A DNA stretch of 64,000 bases from Monosiga brevicollis MX1 (Eukaryota; Opisthokonta; Choanoflagellata; Craspedida; Salpingoecidae). The notes under the pieces were generated by a model that saw only the letters and a list, made by a program, of their open reading frames with translations, searched no databases and was not told the DNA's origin. The stretch spans positions 516,421 to 580,420 of the forward strand of contig NW_001865041.1 in the NCBI RefSeq assembly GCF_000002865.3, written 5' to 3'. The translations under genes were made by a program, and so were the position numbers. Of the stretch, positions 147 to 9,380 are shown piece by piece (the first letter of the stretch is position 1; each line of letters begins with the position of its first letter).

Positions 147-571
147 CAAAAGCTAGCATACAAAGACAGTATGACGTACCTTCTGCGCCAAAGGTTTTGA
201 CATTGCGAACAAGCAACGCAAGCAGCACGACTTGAGTGACAGCAGCACGCGAACTATCCTTTGTAATTGCCAAACATGGCCCAAGCCTGGAAAAACTGGC
301 AGATACACAAGCTCCCTTGAGGCTGATGACTTTTATTCATTCTTATGATCATCATTATTATTACATAGGATTCATCCGCATACATGGCCATACCACAATC
401 GACAAGCAAATTGAAATCGCTGATTCACATGCCCCCACCCACCCCCCCCCCCCAAAAAAAAAAAAATCTGATTGTAAATTGGAAAGAAAGATCGATCGCG
501 ACGGGCTAAAGCAATAATGAGAAAACGCAGCGGCTCCGCCGTCCCCATGGAAAAGCAACAAAATCTCCACC
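147..571. other. 3' flank of the tyrosine kinase gene
   Basis: No gene is supported here. The stretch holds a homopolymer run (about a dozen C followed by a dozen A) near 437-470. It is downstream of the kinase-SH2 stop codon, so it probably includes that gene's 3' untranslated region. Confidence 0.5.
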
Positions 572-3500
572 TCAGCTTGTTAGCTTCACATCACAGCTAC
601 GACCTAGACAAGCCTCGAGGCTTCCCTTGTGCTTCATGTGATAGTTGATCAAATCCGGAATTGAATCAAACTCTGGTCCATAAAAGCGATAGCGGCCGCT
701 GTAAAGCCACAGTTGACAAAAGACCCCCAAGCCACGAGTCACGGAAAAGCATGAGTTTGGCGAGGCAGTGAGCAGCTCGGTCAGAAGCTCAACGCCTGGC
801 TTTACCCAACATTGCAAAGCTGCTTGGCAATTGCAAACACCAAACATTCGTGCATTTCTTGAAGGCGTGATCGTGCGTACCTGTCTAACCGCTGAATGCG
901 GTAATGGCGAACTTTGGCCTGAACAATCACGTCGAGTGTAAAGTCGTTGGGACTGCTGCTAGACTGGCGAACCAAGAACGAGCCCTCCAGCTCTACAAAA
1001 ATGGCAAGCAAGCCATTGTGTGCGTCAAGTCACGTCGCAAAGATGCCGACAACAAGTGACCCTACGACGTACCGGCAATGTTGCCCTGTGATAACAGCAG
1101 GCGCTCGGCAGCAATTTTGGAGATGCTGCCATGAAAATAAGGCATGGAGTCTGCAGCCACAGCCATGATGCATGATGCAATGAGAGGACGGCGAGGTCAC
1201 TTGACTCAATCTTGCTCGCGAACTTCCACTAGACGCCCCCCATACCTGAGCCAGAAATCAGCTCCTCATCATCGTCAGGCAAGGCTGGCAAACGCTTCGT
1301 TTGCACGTAGGTGGTATGATCAGTCAGCTGTGAATAAGGCGCCGCCCCATCCTCAGCCGGCTAAAGATAAAAAAAATTGACCAATGTCCCAATAGACAAA
1401 CGGAGGGGCGTGAGTTATGTTCTCCCTGCAGGTGTGTGCACCATGAAACCGTCCATCCGAACAAACGCGACGACAAACCGGCTGCACGTTGATGTCGCTA
1501 AAGGTCAGTTTTTTGTATGGACTGGCTTCGACGCTGTCCGGGTCCTCTTGCGCTACGCGGAACATACGGCCGAGATCGCGAACCTGTCGCTCTTCCTCGG
1601 CGTGCGTAATTTGCAGGTGCCCGGCATGCAGGTCTGCAATGGTCTCATACAGTTTTCTGGGTAGAAAAAACCACCAGAGTTGACAGTCGTCAACTAACCG
1701 CAGGATGGGCGCTTTTATTGCAGCAAGGGTCCGATGGCACATACTTGAAGGAAGGACGCTCATCAGGGTTCTCATACCAACACGTGCGCATCATTGCGTA
1801 AACATTGTCAGGACAGTCATCCGGGATTGGCAGTCGCAGGCCGTTCATCAACTATCCCAGAAACGATCAAATAATGATGAGGGCCGAGGCCCATCCAGCA
1901 CTGATTTGCGATCACTGGCCCAGAAGTACCATGCCACACAGACAAAACGACCCAATAGTTTTCACATGTTATGCGCACCTGCAGCGGCAAAACATCGTTG
2001 CTCACGCCCTTGTACGGCATGTCACCGTAGGTGAAGATCTCGTGACAAACCACACCAAAAGACCTGAACGAATTTTCAAGCAAAATTGAGGAGGAAGTGG
2101 GGGGGCGGGATGCGTTCACACAGTGCTGGTTGACAGTGCTTACCAGACATCAGTTTTGAGGGTGAACTTGCGAGTGTCCAATGATTCAATGGCCATCCAG
2201 CGCAAAGGCAGGGCATCATCCTTGTCGACAAAGTAATAGTCCTCGTCCTCGAGGATCTGACGTGTCATGCCAAAGTCGCCAATCTTGATGATGGCGTTAC
2301 TGTCCACAAGGCAGTTGCGAGCAGCCAAGTCCTGTGTGGCACGAGGTCGTTGCGTCATGATTAACCAATCAATCCCTGTCTGAATCAATGCTGTTTCATC
2401 CAATTTGCAATCAGGTTGATCAAAATGACTTACGCGGTGGATAAACTGTTTGGTGGCCAAGTAGTGCATTCCGGCGGCAATGTTGCCCATCATGCGCAGC
2501 CGTTCTTCCACATTGAGAACAAACTGCTCCTGCTTCAACTTGCGCAGCAAGCTACGCAAGTCGCCGAGCTCGCAGAGCTCTGTCACGATGCACCAGGGCT
2601 TTTCCGAAGTCACAACACCAATCAGCCGCAGAACTACCACGGAAGGAAAGAACATGAGGACAGCGCGAACCATCTGGCTATCAGTACAGGCGCGAGAGGT
2701 TGAGGAGCAATTGTGTGTGCCTTGTTTTCGGGGCCATGAGCGCAAGCGACAACAAAGCATGCAAAGCGCCGCTGTGTGTTGAGCTAACCATTGTCGTGCT
2801 TGAATTCCATCATGATCTGAGCTTCAAGTAGAAAGTAGCGCGGTGCTTTTTCATCATCATCCTCTGACTTGAGCGTTTTGATGGCCACATCCAGTTGCTT
2901 GCCACTGATCTCTGTGTAGCGACCTCTAAAAAAATCACCAAAATTGCCCTGTTGCATCCAACAGCCACCGTAAAGCAAAGGTTAGGAAAAGAACGCAGGA
3001 AACGTAGCAATAATACACCAAAGGGGTGGCGCATCTGCTGGAGAGGGGCAGAATGACATACATGCCCCAGTTGCTCGAGTTGTTGAATACGGTTCACGGC
3101 GAGTTGCACCGACTTGAGATGGCTCTGGATGTCTGACACGACCACAGATACAGAGGTCATGTTCAGCTTGTTCTGGTCCACGATGGAGCCATCTGGGGCG
3201 CGCATGGTCAATTGGCCGTCATCGCCCACGGTGATCAGTGAATAACCCTTCGGCACGCGTTTTGGCCCGGGGGCGCTAGCACTTGTGGGTGAGCCCTGAG
3301 CGTCCGGTTTGCGCATGACGCGCGGCTGCAGATAGGCATTGGCGGCCGCACTGTTGTTCACTTGCGACGAGCGGGCAGGTATGGCGGGCGCATTCTGATA
3401 CTCTGAGGTTGCAGCCATGGGGTCTGACACAACCGATGATGGCGTGGCGGGCGCAGCACGACGGGCCGGCACGGCCGGGGCTGCAGCTGCATTGGGTCCG

Positions 3501-4816
3501 CTCGCCATACCAGCCAGCATAGGATCAGCCACGGCACGTGGGGCGAGCATGGGGTCGGCAGGTGCGACACGCGGTGGAACCGCCGGCATGTCGTGGCGCG
3601 TCGGGGGTCGAGGTGGAGGCACCGAATCGGCAGTGACTGGGTTTGCTGGCGAAGAAGTGGGCTGAGCATGTGGATGTGAGTGTGCTGGTCGAGGCGGGGG
3701 GGTTGAGTCGACCGTATTCGAGGCAGGCTTGGCCGCGGCAGGTGGGCTGGCCGTGGCAGGTGGGCTGGCCGTGGCAGGTGGGCTGGCTGGCCCAGCCATG
3801 AGCATGCTATCGGGGCCCGTCCCAAACATGCCGGTACCGCTATCACCAAGTCAGGCAGAGCCACAAGTGAAGGTGGAAAGCTTGTGGCAAACAAGACGAT
3901 CAAAAGAGTCGCATGACCAAACAAGAAGGGCATCCTTGTGAGTGTGGAGTTGAGGCGATACCTGCTAGGTTTTTGACGCAGGGTGGTCTTCTTTTCATCT
4001 GCAGCCACCAGACCACTTTGCGGCCGCTCGCGCACCCTGGAATGGAGTTGCAGGCAAGTGAACACCACGCGAGATTTCACTCCGGTTGTTTTGCGCGTAA
4101 ACCAGGACATGAACATACGTAGGCTGTGCGGTAAGGGATGGCGCATGACTGCTCAGCGGCATATTCATCCAACGGCATGGGGCAAGCACACGAACATAAG
4201 GGTGAGTCTGAGCAAACTTCTCGCGCTCGGTGCGGTTTGGTCGCATTGCATTAACGAGATCTGAAAAGAGAAGAGAAACACAGCCATGAGGTGCTTACAC
4301 TGGATTGGGAAACATCTCCGTGGTGCTGTCGTGCAGATGAGCATCCTCGTTTTCTGCAATATGTACATCGCAGCAGAACGACGTGAATTCGCAGGCCGCC
4401 GATTGCTCAAGGTCCACTGATACGGAAAGGACGCACTTTTGCCCGCACAGAGCATGACTAAAACCACCAGACCGCAGAGAAGCACCACGGCAAGAATGGG
4501 TTGTGTAGGAGTTGTGCCCCAACCCTCGTGGTCTGTACCGGTCCCTAGAGATAGGGACAGGGCGTAAAAGAGAGAGAGGGAGAGAGAGAGAAGCAGAGAG
4601 TGTGTGAGAGAGAGAACACAACAGAGAAGAGAGTGAGGAGAAGCAAGAGTGTCGCAAGACAGTCAAGGTGAGCAAGCAGCAAAGAACAGTCAGCAACCAA
4701 CCATGCTCGGGCGCCAAAGGGTTGCGCGTTGGCTGGCCAAGGACGCTGAGGGGCAGGCAGACGGCAATCAGCAGCAAGGCCGTGACCACACCATGTCGAG
4801 CGGATGATGATGCCAT
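572..4816 (-). CDS. Membrane tyrosine kinase with C-terminal SH2 domain
   Basis: Multi-exon gene read from 4816 down to the TGA at 572-574. The first exon encodes a signal peptide of about 27 residues ending LSVLG. A phase-1 join then gives only about 27 outside residues before a membrane helix (LAVVLLCGLVVLVMLC, near 4480). Inside come a linker (4246-3995), a proline-rich stretch with PPPRP and PAIPAR motifs (3830-3070), and a tyrosine kinase domain. The kinase shows the loop GHGNFGDF (near 2950), VAIK, the split HRDLAARN, DFGMTR (near 2280), an activation loop with paired tyrosines, LPLRWMAIESL and CWYENPDERPSF. A tail with YSQL and TTYVQT motifs (1370-1230) leads in phase into a full SH2 domain with SFLVRQSSSS (near 975) and FYGPEFDSIPDL. 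The intron after RPSF is not firmly placed. The kinase parts and the SH2 could be two genes, but exon phases join them cleanly. Confidence 0.85.
3737..3790 (-). repeat. 18-bp in-frame coding repeat
   Basis: Three copies of an 18-base unit (gtggcaggtgggctggcc on the plus strand) encode repeated SPPATA in the proline-rich inner segment of the tyrosine kinase. The unit length is a multiple of three, so copy-number change keeps the frame. Confidence 0.85.
4566..4640. repeat. GA-rich tract in kinase intron 1
   Basis: Purine-rich on the plus strand, so CT-rich on the coding strand. It lies between the signal-peptide exon and the membrane-helix exon, just upstream of the splice acceptor ctctag, and may act as an extended pyrimidine tract. 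Confidence 0.8.
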
Positions 4817-5596
4817 GATGCAGAGGCCTGTGCAAGAGCAAGGCTTGGCGCAATCCGATCCGCCTTGAGCTGCACGCGGTGCTTTGACGCAAGCGGGTCA
4901 GGGCCAATGGCGAGGATTAAAAGGGGCGGGCAGTCGCCCTGTGGTGCCGTGCCAGATGACGGGCTACAGCCCACCGGCTTGAAAGAACGCCGCTCGCTGT
5001 AGGCAAAAGAGAAAAGAAAAACAGTCCGAGCATTCATGCCATGCATAAAGTAAGACCAGGAACGGGAATGGCCGTGCTTCGTGACCCGGTACGTCTGGGC
5101 ACTCCTGGCATGAGGAGCACTTGAGCCAAGAAAGAGCACGGGGCGGTGATGAAAGACGTACCGCCGCGAGGTGGCTGCTGGCGGGTCGAAGCAGATGAGT
5201 TTAAGCGACTGTCCAACCTACAAAGGCAATGGAACGGAGCAGAGATTCGCACAGGGAGCAATTGTGACCATGAGCCGGCGCCATTAGATCCTGAGCCTGG
5301 AGTAACCTGGCTTCGACCCCTCCCCTTCGACACGAGAGCACTGTCGCCAACAAAAAAGAGGCAACCCCAACGTGCAAAGGACCATGTGACCAGGAAAGAA
5401 AGCCATTGGCGAGACCAGGCTGGCAGCGTGCGCATTCGCACAGACAGACAGCAGACCAAAGACGACCCGAGCCAACCAGCCGACCGAGTCACACACACAC
5501 GAACGCACACACACACACGCACACATCAGCACAAGTCACCAGCTCACCTGGACAAGAGCTCGCAAGTTTATGCTCTCTCTCTCTCTCTCTCTCAAT

Positions 5597-5637
<41 letters not shown>

Positions 5638-6233
5638 TCTCTCTTTAGTGTACAGCTCATATCGGCATTGACAGGCATCCGCCTTCTTTTGTCTCTCACT
5701 CACTTTTGTAACGTCACGTTTTACACGTTGGTGTTGGTGGTGAGTGACCCCAAAAGCTTGAGGGCACACACACACAACACATACAGACATACTCAAAAGG
5801 GGGCGTTACACGTAACATCATACCACGTAACATCGCAACATATCACACTTTCACACACACTTCACACACACTACTACGATGTTCACACCCCACATTCTCT
5901 GTGTTAGGCTTGATAACTAGACTTGCTTCTGTCGTGTGTAAGCTCGTCCCTCTGATGCTCGAATTCGCACCCACACTCTTCGTTCGACCTTTGTCCTGGT
6001 TTGGGCTCGAGCTACCATGTGAGAGTGTGATGCGATGCTCGACCACTTGTCAGACATGACATGGTGTTGAATGTCAGACTTTCATTTGGTAGTTGGTCGC
6101 TCAGAGGGGACCGGGGGTTTTGGCGGTTCAAGAGAGAGGGGAGTGAGAGATCGAGCGCAGAGCGCGACAAGACGCGACAGGGGCGGCGGTTCGGGTGACG
6201 TGCAAGGTTGCCACCTTCCATCACACCGGCAAG
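4817..6233. promoter_or_regulatory. Divergent intergenic region, kinase (-) / THOC3 (+)
   Basis: A 1.4-kb interval between two start codons pointing away from each other, so it should hold both promoters. It contains CA repeats near 5491-5525 and a long CT tract at 5572-5645. The reading frames present are biased by these repeats and show no recognisable protein. Confidence 0.5.
5491..5645. repeat. CA and CT microsatellites
   Basis: An imperfect ACACAC tract (5491-5525) is followed by about 70 bases of CTCTCT broken twice by caattcat. The CT strand is the coding strand of the downstream THOC3 gene. Confidence 0.9.
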
Positions 6234-7973
6234 ATGAACTTGCAGGAGTTGCAAAAGTTGTATGCCAATGCCGAGTCCCGCACGCATGCCCTTCGCAGCA
6301 ATGGGCACAGCAAAACAGTGAGATCTTGTGCTGAACCGGTGCATCGACCCGTGAAGGTGACTCTTCTTGAGTAGACTGACCGACCCGCTAACCTCTTCTT
6401 CACTGATACAGATCCATGGCCTACGCTTCAATGCCGATGGCACCTTGCTGGCCTCAAGCGGCATTGACAAGCTCGTCATTGTGCACGAGCCCGGCACCAA
6501 CGGGCAGTTTGTACGTCTCGTGATCCCACGTAGACCCACGCGCCTGGTGCCACCCGCAACTCACGTTGAACACCCGTGGCTAGGAGGAAGCAGTCAAACT
6601 TGAGGGGCACACCAGTGCCGTAGATCAAGTGGCCTTTCACCCGCAGAACACCAACATCCTGGCCTCTGCCTCGGATGATAAGAGCGTCAAACTGTGGGAT
6701 GTCCGTGGTACGTTTTGACTGCCCATGCCCACTTCTGTCCTCCTTCAAAGACCCCGTGATCATGACGTTTCTGCCTCACTTCAGCGCCGTGCCGCATTGT
6801 TACCCTGTGCAGCCAAGCAGCGTGAAACAACGTCCGTCACCACGGACGACGGCAACATCAACCTCAAATGGCATCCAGACTGCAACCTCCTGGCTGTGGG
6901 CAACCGCGTACGTTTGCTCGGTGGCTCGTGACCTGTCACCTCTTTGCCTCTGACGGTCATCAACAGGCGTGTTGGCGCTTGCTTGGACTTGCTGCTGAGC
7001 TGCTCAAGACCTCGTGCCCAATACCATGACCCCGTGCCCAATACCATGACCCCGTGCCCAAACCGTGACCCCGTGCCCAATACCGTGACCCCGTGCCTGC
7101 TGATGGACGTGGATTGCTTGCAAATTGCTCTGCTCTGGTCCGCAGTCGGATGTCATTACGCTCTTTGATACACGCACCTGGCAAGCCTTGACCACTAAAC
7201 AGTATGAGATTGAAGTCAACGGCCTGAGTTGGAACAATGATGCCACGGGCTTTTTCCTGACCACGGGTCGTGGTACGTGCCCCGTCTTGACGCACACCCC
7301 ACCCCAGCAACACAAGTCGTGGGGTCATTGGCCCGCACTCATCCAGCGCCTCCCATCTTGGCGTAGGCTCAGTCCGCGTGCTCCATCCTGAGACCCTTGA
7401 GCCTCTCTGTGAGGACCTCACGGCCCACACTTCAAACTGCCTCTCTATTGAATTTTCGCCCTGCGGCCGGTTTGTGGACCGTAACCGGCAACTCTTTATG
7501 CATGCCAACCCGACACTCGAAACTGCGAATGGTGTACTGGGACCTTCTCACAGCTTCGCTGGCTCGGCCTGGCCCAAAACTTAGATACTTTGCCACCGGC
7601 AGTGCCGATGCAACCGTGAGCCTGTTCGACGCTCATGAGTTGATTTGCTTTCGCACGCACAATTCTCTCGATGGTGTTGCGCGGAGCATTGGTTTCAGCT
7701 ACGATGGCGACGTCTTTGCAGCTTGCTCGCCTCAAGATCACCTCGACCTGGTACGTCCACGTTTTGGGAGAGCAGCAAGTCGTGGTCCTCCGTCTCTCGC
7801 ATCTCACGCTTTGCATACGTTGCTTTCAGATCCACACCGAGTCCGACGCCGTTTTGCACTCAATCAAGACTGGTAAGGAGTCAAATGCCGTGACCTGGCA
7901 CCCCACCAAGCACATGGTCGCCCTTGCGCACTCTGATTCCAGCCTACCCGCCATCAAGATTGTCGGAAGCTGA
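6234..7973 (+). CDS. THOC3: THO complex subunit 3 (WD40 protein, Tex1/THOC3)
   Basis: Multi-exon gene from ATG 6234 ([15 protein letters not shown]) to TGA 7971-7973. The first exon ends at HSKT and splices in phase 0 to [17 protein letters not shown]. The exons spell successive WD40 blades: [98 protein letters not shown], and a last blade with [18 protein letters not shown]. The stretches [10 protein letters not shown] and [12 protein letters not shown] are hallmarks of THOC3 in animals. The protein belongs to the THO/TREX complex, which couples transcription to mRNA packaging and export in the nucleus. One intron carries a minisatellite. The gene is divergent from the kinase and convergent with the carrier. 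Confidence 0.93.
7012..7099. repeat. 20-bp intronic minisatellite
   Basis: About four copies of cccgtgcccaataccatgac, with one shortened unit, lie inside a THOC3 intron just before the exon that begins with [13 protein letters not shown]. Confidence 0.9.
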
Positions 7974-8224
7974 GCCAAGTCAGCCCGTGTTTCTCACCAT
8001 GCTAACCGAATTGAACAATGAGACAAAGCGAAGGAATGCAACTTCTTTTTTTTTTTTTTTTTTCTGCACGTGCAAAAATGCGCGTAGGAGATTTACTTTT
8101 GATGGCCGGGCAAATGAATTTCAACACACACACACATTCATTGGCATACTCTAACTCATTCTCTGATGGATATGCATTGGCGCGTGAGACAGAATGCACG
8201 GGCTCTCTCTAAGCAGGTCTGCAG

Positions 8225-9380
8225 CTAGATGTCATGCCCGTCCTGGCGCGCCTTGGATTTGCGCACTTGCAGACGCAACATGTCAAAGGTCACAAAGACA
8301 GCAACACTAAAGGCAGACACATGAATCCAGAGCGGCACAACACCCTTCCACAGGCTGAGGACCCCTTCATTCCGAATCATCTTGGTCAAGGCGTCAATCG
8401 GTCCGCTATAGAGAGGCTTGCCATCGGGGCCGAGCTCATTGCGATAAATGCGCGTCTTGATGCAGTCGAGGGGGTTGCCCAAATAGGCACCAAAGAAGCC
8501 GGCACTCAAGGAACCGAGGAAGAAGAGCGGAAGCCCATCTTCCATGCCATAATGCTTGCGCAAGAGATCTTTGGTGAGATCATAGGCCGTAACCTCGGCC
8601 ATGTTTTGCCAGGCCATACGTGGCACGGCAATCTTGAGGCCGTGGAAGAGACCCGCAACGCCCTCCGTGGCCATGATGTACTTGAAGCAACTGACAGTGC
8701 CCTTGAAGGGTACCTTCTGACCCGGTGCAGGCTTGATGGAGGCTTGCAGCTTGGTTTTGACCAGATCAGCCGGGTTGGCAAACACCATGGCCACCGCCCC
8801 AGTCGAGGAGGAGGCCAGCATGCGCTGCCACAGCTGGACCTCCTTGAGCTCGCTTGGATCTGTGGGCTTTTCAAAAGTGCCATAGTTCAGATAGCTGATG
8901 GTCGGATCATAGAGGCCCAAGCGCATGGTCCCCGCAATGCTGTGCCGCAATAATCCGGATGGCAGACCCGCCATGAGCGCCATCAAGCCCTCATTTCGCC
9001 CCACCTTGATCATGGAGTCAAACATGCCAGTGAACTTGACTGCGGGGCCACACGAAAACAAAAGGGTGTGATGAGGCCAGCAACTTGGAACGAAGAGATA
9101 AATAGAAGCAACAGACCACGACACAATCAGAAGGCCCAACATGTACTCTTCAATTGATCTTGAATCGGTCACCAAAGCCAGTCAGGGCCAGCGGGACCCA
9201 CCTTCACCAGGTAGAAGAGCGCGGCTGCCCTGAATTTGGAGCCGCACTTTGGCCACCTCAAAAGGATAGGTCACGGCCTCCGCCACACAGGAGGCAGCCA
9301 AGGAGCACAGCAAGTTTTCGCCGCCACTCAGTGGGTACTTGGTCAGATCGACGCCCTGCGCCGTCACCTTGACAGCCATG
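8225..9380 (-). CDS. Mitochondrial carrier, UCP/dicarboxylate-like (SLC25)
   Basis: Two exons joined in phase (…LLPGE to VKFTGMFDSM) give about 305 residues, the normal length for SLC25 proteins. All three repeats show the carrier signature: PFEVAKVRLQ, PADLVKTKLQ and PLDCIKTRIY. RLGLYDPTISYL and the C-terminal EGVLSLWKGVVPLWIH followed by VFVTFDMLRL resemble the uncoupling-protein and dicarboxylate/oxoglutarate branch more than ADP/ATP or phosphate carriers. It should span the inner mitochondrial membrane six times. The substrate cannot be read from the sequence. Start chosen at MAVKVTAQGVD (9380). An upstream in-frame ATG at 9445 would add 22 residues. Confidence 0.9.

Follow-up and report, generated by a model that had tools for sequence, protein, structure and literature searches.

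Can a membrane anchor, a tyrosine kinase domain, and an SH2 domain placed behind the kinase belong to one protein? This question is raised by a gene in a 64,000-nucleotide stretch of Monosiga brevicollis DNA (the window). We assembled a gene model of 15 in-phase exons on the minus strand, with splice sites set by hand, that encodes a protein of 855 residues. The model begins with an ATG at 4816 and its stop codon finishes at 572, as an earlier sequence-only reading had placed it. All 14 introns were 80 to 182 bases long with GT...AG ends, the phase was kept throughout, and the reading frame contained no internal stop. Three donors looked poor by eye, those of exon 1 (GTTGGT), exon 6 (GTTAGC), and exon 11 (GTTTGT). 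In agreement with the sequence-only reading, the exon phases joined a putative signal peptide, an outside stub (26 residues here, about 27 in that reading), a membrane helix, a proline-rich segment, a kinase, and an SH2 domain (Table 1). As a gene model predicted from the DNA, one tyrosine kinase with a membrane anchor, only a stub on the outside, and its SH2 domain after the kinase is thus confirmed.

Table 1. Features of the gene model in the window (coding scores by two measures, first/second).
Feature	Position (strand)	Residues	Content
Exon 1	4702..4816 (-)		Start codon, putative signal peptide (residues 1-27, at 4816-4736), beginning of the outside stub
Exon 2	4437..4544 (-)		Last part of the stub, then the membrane helix (residues 55-73, at 4497-4441)
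Exon 3	4119..4260 (-)		Basic juxtamembrane part
Exon 4	3962..4036 (-)		Juxtamembrane part; in-frame coding scores 11.6/5.8
Exon 5	3062..3839 (-)		Proline/alanine-rich segment, then kinase start (3085); in-frame coding scores 71.0/33.3
Tyrosine kinase domain	1641..3085 (-)	399-658	Exons 5-11
Kinase-SH2 linker	1140..1640 (-)	659-754	Contains exon 12 (1360-1246)
SH2 domain	638..1139 (-)	755-834	Exons 13-15
Exon 15	572..698 (-)		SH2 end and stop codon
AATAAA	332..337 (-)		Candidate poly(A) signal roughly 235 bases past the stop

Exons 1-3 had coding scores of 3.3/3.8, -1.6/3.3, and 2.6/1.2, each above its own alternative frames. Their second scores were no better than the 6.3, 6.4, and 9.1 reached by a frame in three introns. 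An extra exon within intron 2, where one frame scored -2.2/9.1, was considered and rejected, as reading by hand gave no phase-consistent joining.

The proline content was 21% over residues 148-350, with PPPRP-type motifs, and four tyrosines (96, 294, 316, and 346) were present on the inner side before the kinase. The spliced protein matched the Pfam profile PK_Tyr_Ser-Thr (PF07714) over profile positions 2-257 of 258 (E = 1.8e-89). Its motifs were GHGNFG at residue 405, VAIK at 427, LLEAQ at 446, HRDLAARN at 525, DFG at 545, and a tyrosine pair at 558-559. The complete domain and the HRDLAARN catalytic loop, which we take to be TK-type, place the kinase in the TK group. The sequence-only reading had credited the kinase with all key motifs; the full domain and these motifs were found, but the activation segment has MAIES at residue 572, with AIE at the place of APE. 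The catalytic motifs appear intact, and the kinase is predicted to phosphorylate tyrosine. Comparison of the kinase with a Src-Abl ancestor gave 216 bits, among many near-equal matches.

The SH2 domain, described earlier as complete, was borne out by a domain search of the spliced protein, in which Pfam SH2 (PF00017) was matched over profile positions 1-77 of 77 (E = 1.1e-20). The FLVR motif was found at residue 782 and HYRI at 806; the FLVR arginine and the His and Arg of HYRI are presumably the residues that contact phosphotyrosine, and from these we infer that the domain would bind it. SHP2 supplied the top matches of a similarity search with the SH2 domain (best 60 of 259). The 96-residue linker between the two domains holds Tyr700, Tyr721, and Tyr730. 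Exon 12 within it scored 13.5/14.3 in frame, against -9.1/-16.1 and 1.1/-2.4 in the other frames, and its in-frame score exceeded that of every intron frame scored. The SH2 domain is tied to the kinase because exon 12, lying between both, scores as coding in frame and has no start codon.

We know of no animal receptor kinase with an SH2 domain. RTKB2 and RTKC8, of the same species, share a single helix, a juxtamembrane part, a kinase, and a long tail with the window protein, but their ectodomains are large, and their tails carry RM2 repeats or a CAP-Gly domain. STYK1/NOK is not known to have an SH2 domain and is a pseudokinase, whereas the window protein appears to keep its catalytic motifs. 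STYK1/NOK resembles the window protein as a single-pass, kinase-fold protein with a short outside segment, which in STYK1/NOK has 22 residues; no ligand has been reported for STYK1/NOK (PMC13259870). HMTK kinases of M. brevicollis also combine a tyrosine kinase with their own reader domain able to target substrates (PMC3082566); that domain is a PTB rather than an SH2 and precedes the kinase, and HMD replaces HRD. The window protein has HRD at residue 525, and no PTB domain was matched in it by Pfam at E up to 0.1. In Shk1-5 of Dictyostelium the SH2 domain lies behind the kinase and no membrane helix is known. These proteins likewise hold kinase and SH2 in one chain but belong to the TKL group, with dual specificity for Shk1, whose localisation to the plasma membrane requires its SH2 domain (PMC1420674).

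Src-, Abl-, Csk-, and Fes-type kinases also carry an SH2 domain and a tyrosine kinase in one chain, with the SH2 N-terminal; the window protein instead has it C-terminal on the 96-residue linker, plus a membrane helix, and has no SH2 domain on the N-terminal side of the kinase as the cytosolic family does. That cytosolic tyrosine kinases place SH2 before the kinase, as the sequence-only reading had held, is stated in a review, which describes the arrangement as highly conserved throughout the cytoplasmic family and as a unit that has probably been invariant since early evolution (PMC2791838). If the gene model is true, the window protein would be a natural exception to this order, found in a unicellular organism closely related to animals. 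With it one could test directly whether the position of the SH2 domain affects substrate targeting, a question addressed earlier by rearranging Src (mutant cited in PMC3082566). In the passages found by literature searches, no tyrosine kinase was described that combines a membrane anchor with a C-terminal SH2 domain; the gene may have been catalogued in earlier kinome work.

What might such a protein do? The likeliest mechanism, to which we give an even chance, is that the SH2 domain guides the kinase, anchored in the membrane, to phosphorylated membrane proteins. The window protein itself would be no ligand receptor but a relay. It could be activated by crowding or by another kinase, via phosphorylation of Tyr558/559, and its SH2 domain would then dock on phosphotyrosines that other membrane proteins carry, for example in the tails of the organism's many receptor kinases. 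There the kinase would add more phosphotyrosines, and the signal would be spread or amplified, while the proline-rich segment could hold SH3 proteins. The action would be Src- or Fes-like, but with a membrane helix as anchor and the SH2 domain behind the kinase on its long linker. The earlier suggestion that the protein docks on its own or neighbouring phosphotyrosines rather than bind a large ligand is reasonable, although a ligand-binding partner is possible.

In M. brevicollis, a phosphorylated repeat of the RTKB2 tail binds the SH2 domain of MbSrc1 in vitro (PMC3584944), and for HMTK1 the substrate Km falls about 15-fold with a phosphotyrosine ligand of its PTB domain (PMC3082566); therefore, reader domains can steer kinases of this organism. 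The relay is also favoured by the active-site motifs, by FLVR and HYRI, by the lack of an ectodomain in the upstream frames scanned, and by the need of Dictyostelium Shk1 for its SH2 domain at the plasma membrane. Counted against the relay, the complex of RTKB2 tail and MbSrc1 was undetected in mammalian cells and the tail phosphorylation was weak (PMC3584944). A Src mutant with SH2 behind the kinase was poorer at phosphorylating Cas, Sam68, and pYEEI peptides (cited in PMC3082566), and therefore targeting in the kinase-SH2 order may be weak or of other geometry. The AIE sequence and the weak coding support for exons 1-3 are also counted against the relay.

The main rival, plausible but less probable than the relay, is that the SH2 domain binds phosphorylated Tyr700, Tyr721, or Tyr730 in the linker of the same molecule, or else juxtamembrane tyrosines on a neighbouring copy, so that the kinase is held on or off or clusters are built. 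The three linker tyrosines and the four before the kinase are candidates for such docking, and a stub receptor must cluster in some ligand-free way; however, Tyr721 and Tyr730 lie just 25-34 residues before the SH2 domain. The sequence-only reading had proposed docking on own or neighbouring phosphotyrosines. Docking is reasonable given the linker tyrosines, FLVR, and HYRI, but the sequence holds no preference for self-docking. More doubtful is the proposal that the kinase-then-SH2 order and the ligand-less anchor act together as a self-propagating writer and reader. The SH2 domain would bind marks that its own kinase writes on neighbours, and activity would therefore spread laterally in the membrane without an outside ligand. 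To our knowledge, such an arrangement is not known from animals.

The anchor itself was assessed by hydropathy, which peaked at residues 55-73 (3.05) and residues 9-27 (2.44). Basic residues follow the first of these, the membrane helix, and the stub (residues 28-53) is cysteine-free. The V-L-G ahead of Gln28 agrees, as we understand it, with the -3/-1 rule for signal peptide cleavage. In 2000 dinucleotide shuffles of 4261-4900, judged by criteria fixed after the real sequence had been seen, a signal peptide-like start arose in 21, together with a helix-like frame anywhere in 1, and a signal peptide followed by a helix in 0. As in receptor kinases, a putative signal peptide and a single helix precede the kinase, judged from hydropathy and shuffles in exons weakly supported as coding; a ligand-binding ectodomain was found neither in the 26-residue stub nor upstream.

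Lemur (LMTK) kinases are anchored by a two-helix hairpin with a short outer loop, and the window protein would be likewise if its first hydrophobic stretch stayed uncleaved. Its hydropathy suffices for a helix, but the hydrophobic core is short, with an internal proline, and by eye the V-L-G cleavage site fits at residue 27, making a hairpin unlikely. This point concerns topology alone and is compatible with the relay or with self-docking. It is improbable that translation begins in exon 5, where methionines occur early, to give a cytosolic kinase-SH2 protein. The scores of exons 1-3, no better than those of some introns, would allow this, but exon 4 scores as coding in frame, all phases fit, and no shuffle gave a signal peptide followed by a helix.

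Two genes, one for a kinase that ends with exon 11 and another for a small protein with SH2 only, are more improbable still. No new start was found between 1500 and 1200, where the sequence-only reading had allowed for one; an ATG in the SH2 frame at 1166 makes a separate SH2 gene conceivable, and the exon 11 donor is weak. Against this, exon 12 scores as coding in the joined frame and needs a 5' partner, read-through past exon 11 adds 41 residues that score -8.9/-4.8, and AATAAA is absent between exon 11 and the SH2 domain. Below 5000 on the same strand, only one AATAAA occurs besides that in Table 1, starting at 1719 within the intron that separates exons 10 and 11.

Upstream of exon 1, coding scores could overlook a short exon. 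The longest of 11 frames there scored -39.2/-37.8, and the top-scoring one (6049-5846, 4.5/0.4) was about level with exons 1-3; a Pfam scan of the 7 longest gave no match at E up to 0.1. A large ectodomain in further 5' exons, which the sequence-only reading had named as a refutation, gained no support. A divergent gene starts at about 6234, by eye. Least probable of all is an ordinary receptor kinase with a large ectodomain in unrecognised 5' exons, for although some receptor kinases of this genome have a long open frame ahead of the helix (such as L009 and L013) and the 6049-5846 frame scores like exons 1-3, the start codon is immediately followed by the signal peptide, the upstream frames gave the results above, and the divergent gene lies close by.

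Kinase and SH2 order elsewhere in the genome was compared by pairing positions of 114 SH2 matches (all matches) with 190 kinase matches (127 + 63), the latter among the matches listed from two partly overlapping searches (169 and 156 matches). Same-strand pairs less than 6 kb apart formed at least 11 loci, 8 SH2-first and 3 kinase-first by position. The window gene was the only tyrosine kinase found with SH2 last, among the matches listed. The kinase-first locus on C20 looks like two genes, as about 2.2 kb separate the end of the receptor kinase tail frame from the SH2 frame behind it, and a near-identical copy of that kinase on C15 (L011) had no SH2 match within 6 kb. The locus at 163 kb of C15, with exons joined by eye, is an apparent C2-protein kinase-SH2 gene with Ser/Thr-type motifs. 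At the 11 kinase loci of this genome compared with the window gene in the tree described below, no same-strand SH2 match lay within 6 kb behind the kinase.

No close paralog was seen in genome similarity searches with the kinase or with the SH2 domain plus linker. The best non-self kinase match by E-value (C49) had 39% identity, with shorter pieces up to 50%; the top identity among the first dozen was 43% (C47, where an SH2 match precedes the kinase). For SH2 plus linker, the best by E-value (C44) had 34%, and one short, weak match had 55%. In a midpoint-rooted tree of 12 kinases, with 4 of 9 inner branches open, the window kinase fell outside the RTKC-like group (split 98/99), a label assigned by eye from CAP-Gly-like tails. 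Within this poorly resolved tree it stood beside Src-, HMTK-, and other kinases.

The gene model runs from 4816 to 572 on the minus strand and has 15 exons, with splice sites set by reading the three-frame translation and not taken from any annotation. The 14 introns measure 80-182 bases each, start with GT and end with AG, and phase is kept throughout, giving a spliced product of 855 residues. A Pfam search of this protein (E up to 0.1) returned three matches, listed in the table. The sequence-only reading had placed a kinase and a complete SH2 domain with its FLVR arginine on one joined protein, and this was borne out: the phases fit, both profiles were matched nearly full length, and FLVR is present. 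We consider the gene model as a whole very probable. The phosphotyrosine pocket of the SH2 takes its arginine, histidine, and basic residue from FLVR and HYRI, both of which are present. The kinase had been described as carrying all key motifs; GHGNFG, VAIK, the glutamate in LLEAQ, HRDLAARN, DFG, and the twin tyrosines 558/559 are indeed present, but AIE stands in place of APE.

Features of the window gene and its surroundings (coding scores are first/second)
Feature	Position	Strand	Detail
Tyrosine-type kinase profile	residues 399-658		Pfam, matched nearly full length
General kinase profile	about the same stretch as 399-658		Pfam
SH2	residues 755-834		Pfam, matched nearly full length
Exon 1			coding scores 3.3/3.8
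Exon 2			coding scores -1.6/3.3
Exon 3			coding scores 2.6/1.2
AATAAA	from 1719	minus	inside the intron preceding exon 11
AATAAA	from 337	minus	about 235 bases past the SH2 stop

In sequence, the kinase is almost equally similar to solved tyrosine kinases of many kinds. Among the best 60 of 2460 matches, a Src-Abl ancestor, EphA2/A3, FAK, IGF1R, and the insulin receptor scored 216.5-207.8 bits; the top score (298 bits) belonged to a chain that holds the EGFR kinase twice, at 148 bits per copy. For the SH2, the best matches (best 60 of 259) were to SHP2, its N-terminal SH2 being the better stretch.

What is demonstrated for this gene is its anatomy, as predicted from sequence. Two M. brevicollis kinases studied earlier, together with Shk1, suggest by analogy that the SH2 could steer the membrane-anchored kinase to phosphorylated membrane proteins, a role whose prospects we judge evenly balanced. 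One of these two M. brevicollis cases also gave a negative result, in that no complex of the RTKB2 tail with MbSrc1 was detected in cells, according to an excerpt of PMC3584944. The SH2 might otherwise dock on tyrosines of its own or a neighbouring copy, which we regard as doubtful and for which the basis is tyrosine positions: Tyr96, Tyr294 (YQNA), Tyr316, and Tyr346 between helix and kinase, and Tyr700, Tyr721, and Tyr730 in the kinase-SH2 linker. The rivals are partly compatible, because a hairpin, in which the first hydrophobic stretch is uncleaved, bears on topology alone.

Residues 1-27 resemble a cleavable signal peptide, the 26 residues that follow on the outside (28-53) are a stub lacking cysteine, and the hydrophobicity maximum falls at residues 55-73, in agreement with the signal peptide, roughly 27 outside residues, and membrane helix proposed earlier. 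In 2000 dinucleotide shuffles of 4261-4900, a signal peptide-like start with an open frame arose in 21, a helix-like frame was present anywhere in just one of these 21, and a signal peptide followed by a helix arose in none; these counts are a rough guide only, because the criteria were chosen after the real sequence was seen. Two coding scores were computed, the first against intron triplets (the very introns under scoring) and the second against off-frame coding triplets. Training used 15,981 codons from 18 loci, each contributing its longest open frame (at least 450 aa) from whichever strand carried it; this partly redundant set includes other kinases, and in it L002/L003 and L009/L011 are largely the same sequence. 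Exons 1-3 score low, yet each outscores its two alternative frames. All intron frames have a first score of at most 1.5, but three introns hold frames with second scores of 6.3, 6.4, and 9.1, so these exons are not separable from introns by scores alone. From exon 4 onward, first scores run from 5.1 to 71.0 and second scores from 5.8 to 42.1.

A large ectodomain in extra 5' exons, which would speak against the sequence-only reading, found no support when minus-strand 4817-6230 was scored and scanned. This region holds 11 frames of 40 aa or more; the top two by first score are one of 68 aa (4.5/0.4) and one of 133 aa (2.4/-7.6), the frame of greatest length, 163 aa, scores -39.2/-37.8, and the seven longest gave no Pfam match at E up to 0.1. 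At about 6234, some 1.4 kb upstream of the kinase gene, a divergent plus-strand gene begins whose sequence is, by eye, WD40-like and THOC3-like. Given the frame scores, the lack of Pfam matches, and this neighbor, a large upstream ectodomain is unlikely to exist; a short additional exon is possible, since the best upstream frame scores within the range of exons 1-3. By eye, a tandem repeat with a 45-base period occupies 1-150 of the window, and a long CT microsatellite lies at about 5571-5650; both flank the gene.

An SH2 gene distinct from the kinase gene could start at an ATG at 1166, directly before exon 13 and in the SH2 frame, but exon 12 (1360-1246) scores 13.5/14.3 in frame against at most 1.1/-2.4 in its alternative frames, outscores all intron frames scored, and requires a 5' partner because it has no in-frame ATG before its donor; read-through beyond exon 11 yields 41 residues (-8.9/-4.8) and then a stop, and below 5000 the minus strand carries AATAAA only at the two tabulated places. 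Exon 11 is the phase-consistent 5' neighbor of exon 12.

Across the assembly (39,470,161 bases, 57 contigs), 114 SH2 matches were paired with 190 listed kinase matches by strand and distance. At least 11 loci were paired among the kinase matches listed, 8 SH2-first and 3 kinase-first; this is a lower bound because the exon-wise search misses short exons and the kinase set comprises the matches listed. One kinase-first locus is the window gene. Another, L010 (C15:160500-167500, minus strand), is apparently a C2-protein kinase-C-terminal SH2 gene with Ser/Thr-type motifs, and thus an apparent second case of an SH2 behind a kinase. The third, L009 on C20, was rejected since it looks like two genes, a receptor kinase gene and an adjoining one (about 6470-8700) that carries two SH2 matches as well as sub-threshold PDZ matches; these SH2/PDZ frames perhaps form one adaptor gene. 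No close paralog of the window gene was seen among the matches listed in kinase and SH2-with-linker searches.

A kinase-then-SH2 tyrosine kinase is noteworthy because a review stresses the SH2-then-kinase order as conserved (PMC2791838). It is less surprising in M. brevicollis, many of whose kinases have domain combinations that have not been seen in animals (excerpt of PMC3082566). Passages of PMC3584944 give 88 receptor tyrosine kinases for this species, 73 of them in 15 families, and parts of PMC4054682 give a later count of 135 tyrosine kinases and, for two choanoflagellates, eight families (UTKA-H) unassignable as cytoplasmic or receptor, plus 'TK-Unique' kinases. The window gene may belong to UTKA-H or 'TK-Unique'.

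Other kinase loci were also observed. An 18-base stretch of the published M. brevicollis HMTK1 primer matched exactly at C27:362313-362330 (minus strand), and 577 bases after it comes a kinase match whose frame carries the HMD motif; the reversed stretch, as a control, matched nowhere in the assembly. The activation loop there reads EGQDYWQSK, and the published HMTK1 loop is EGDQYWQSK (excerpt of PMC3082566). We take the assembly to be from M. brevicollis or a strain very close to it. One further exact match, C42:500702-500719, perhaps marks a related gene. L009 and L011 (C15) are near-identical receptor kinase genes on separate contigs, differing at scattered residues and in the region before the common part; either the gene was duplicated recently or the assembly contains it twice. 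The kinase match at C7:86555-87166 lies inside an open frame listed with a length of 29,192 aa, which may reflect a run of N translated as open. Many kinase matches on C7, C9, C12, C16, C17, C28, C48, and other contigs look like an expanded family; they cover roughly positions 13-203 of the profile, and their open frames are approximately 650-800 aa long.
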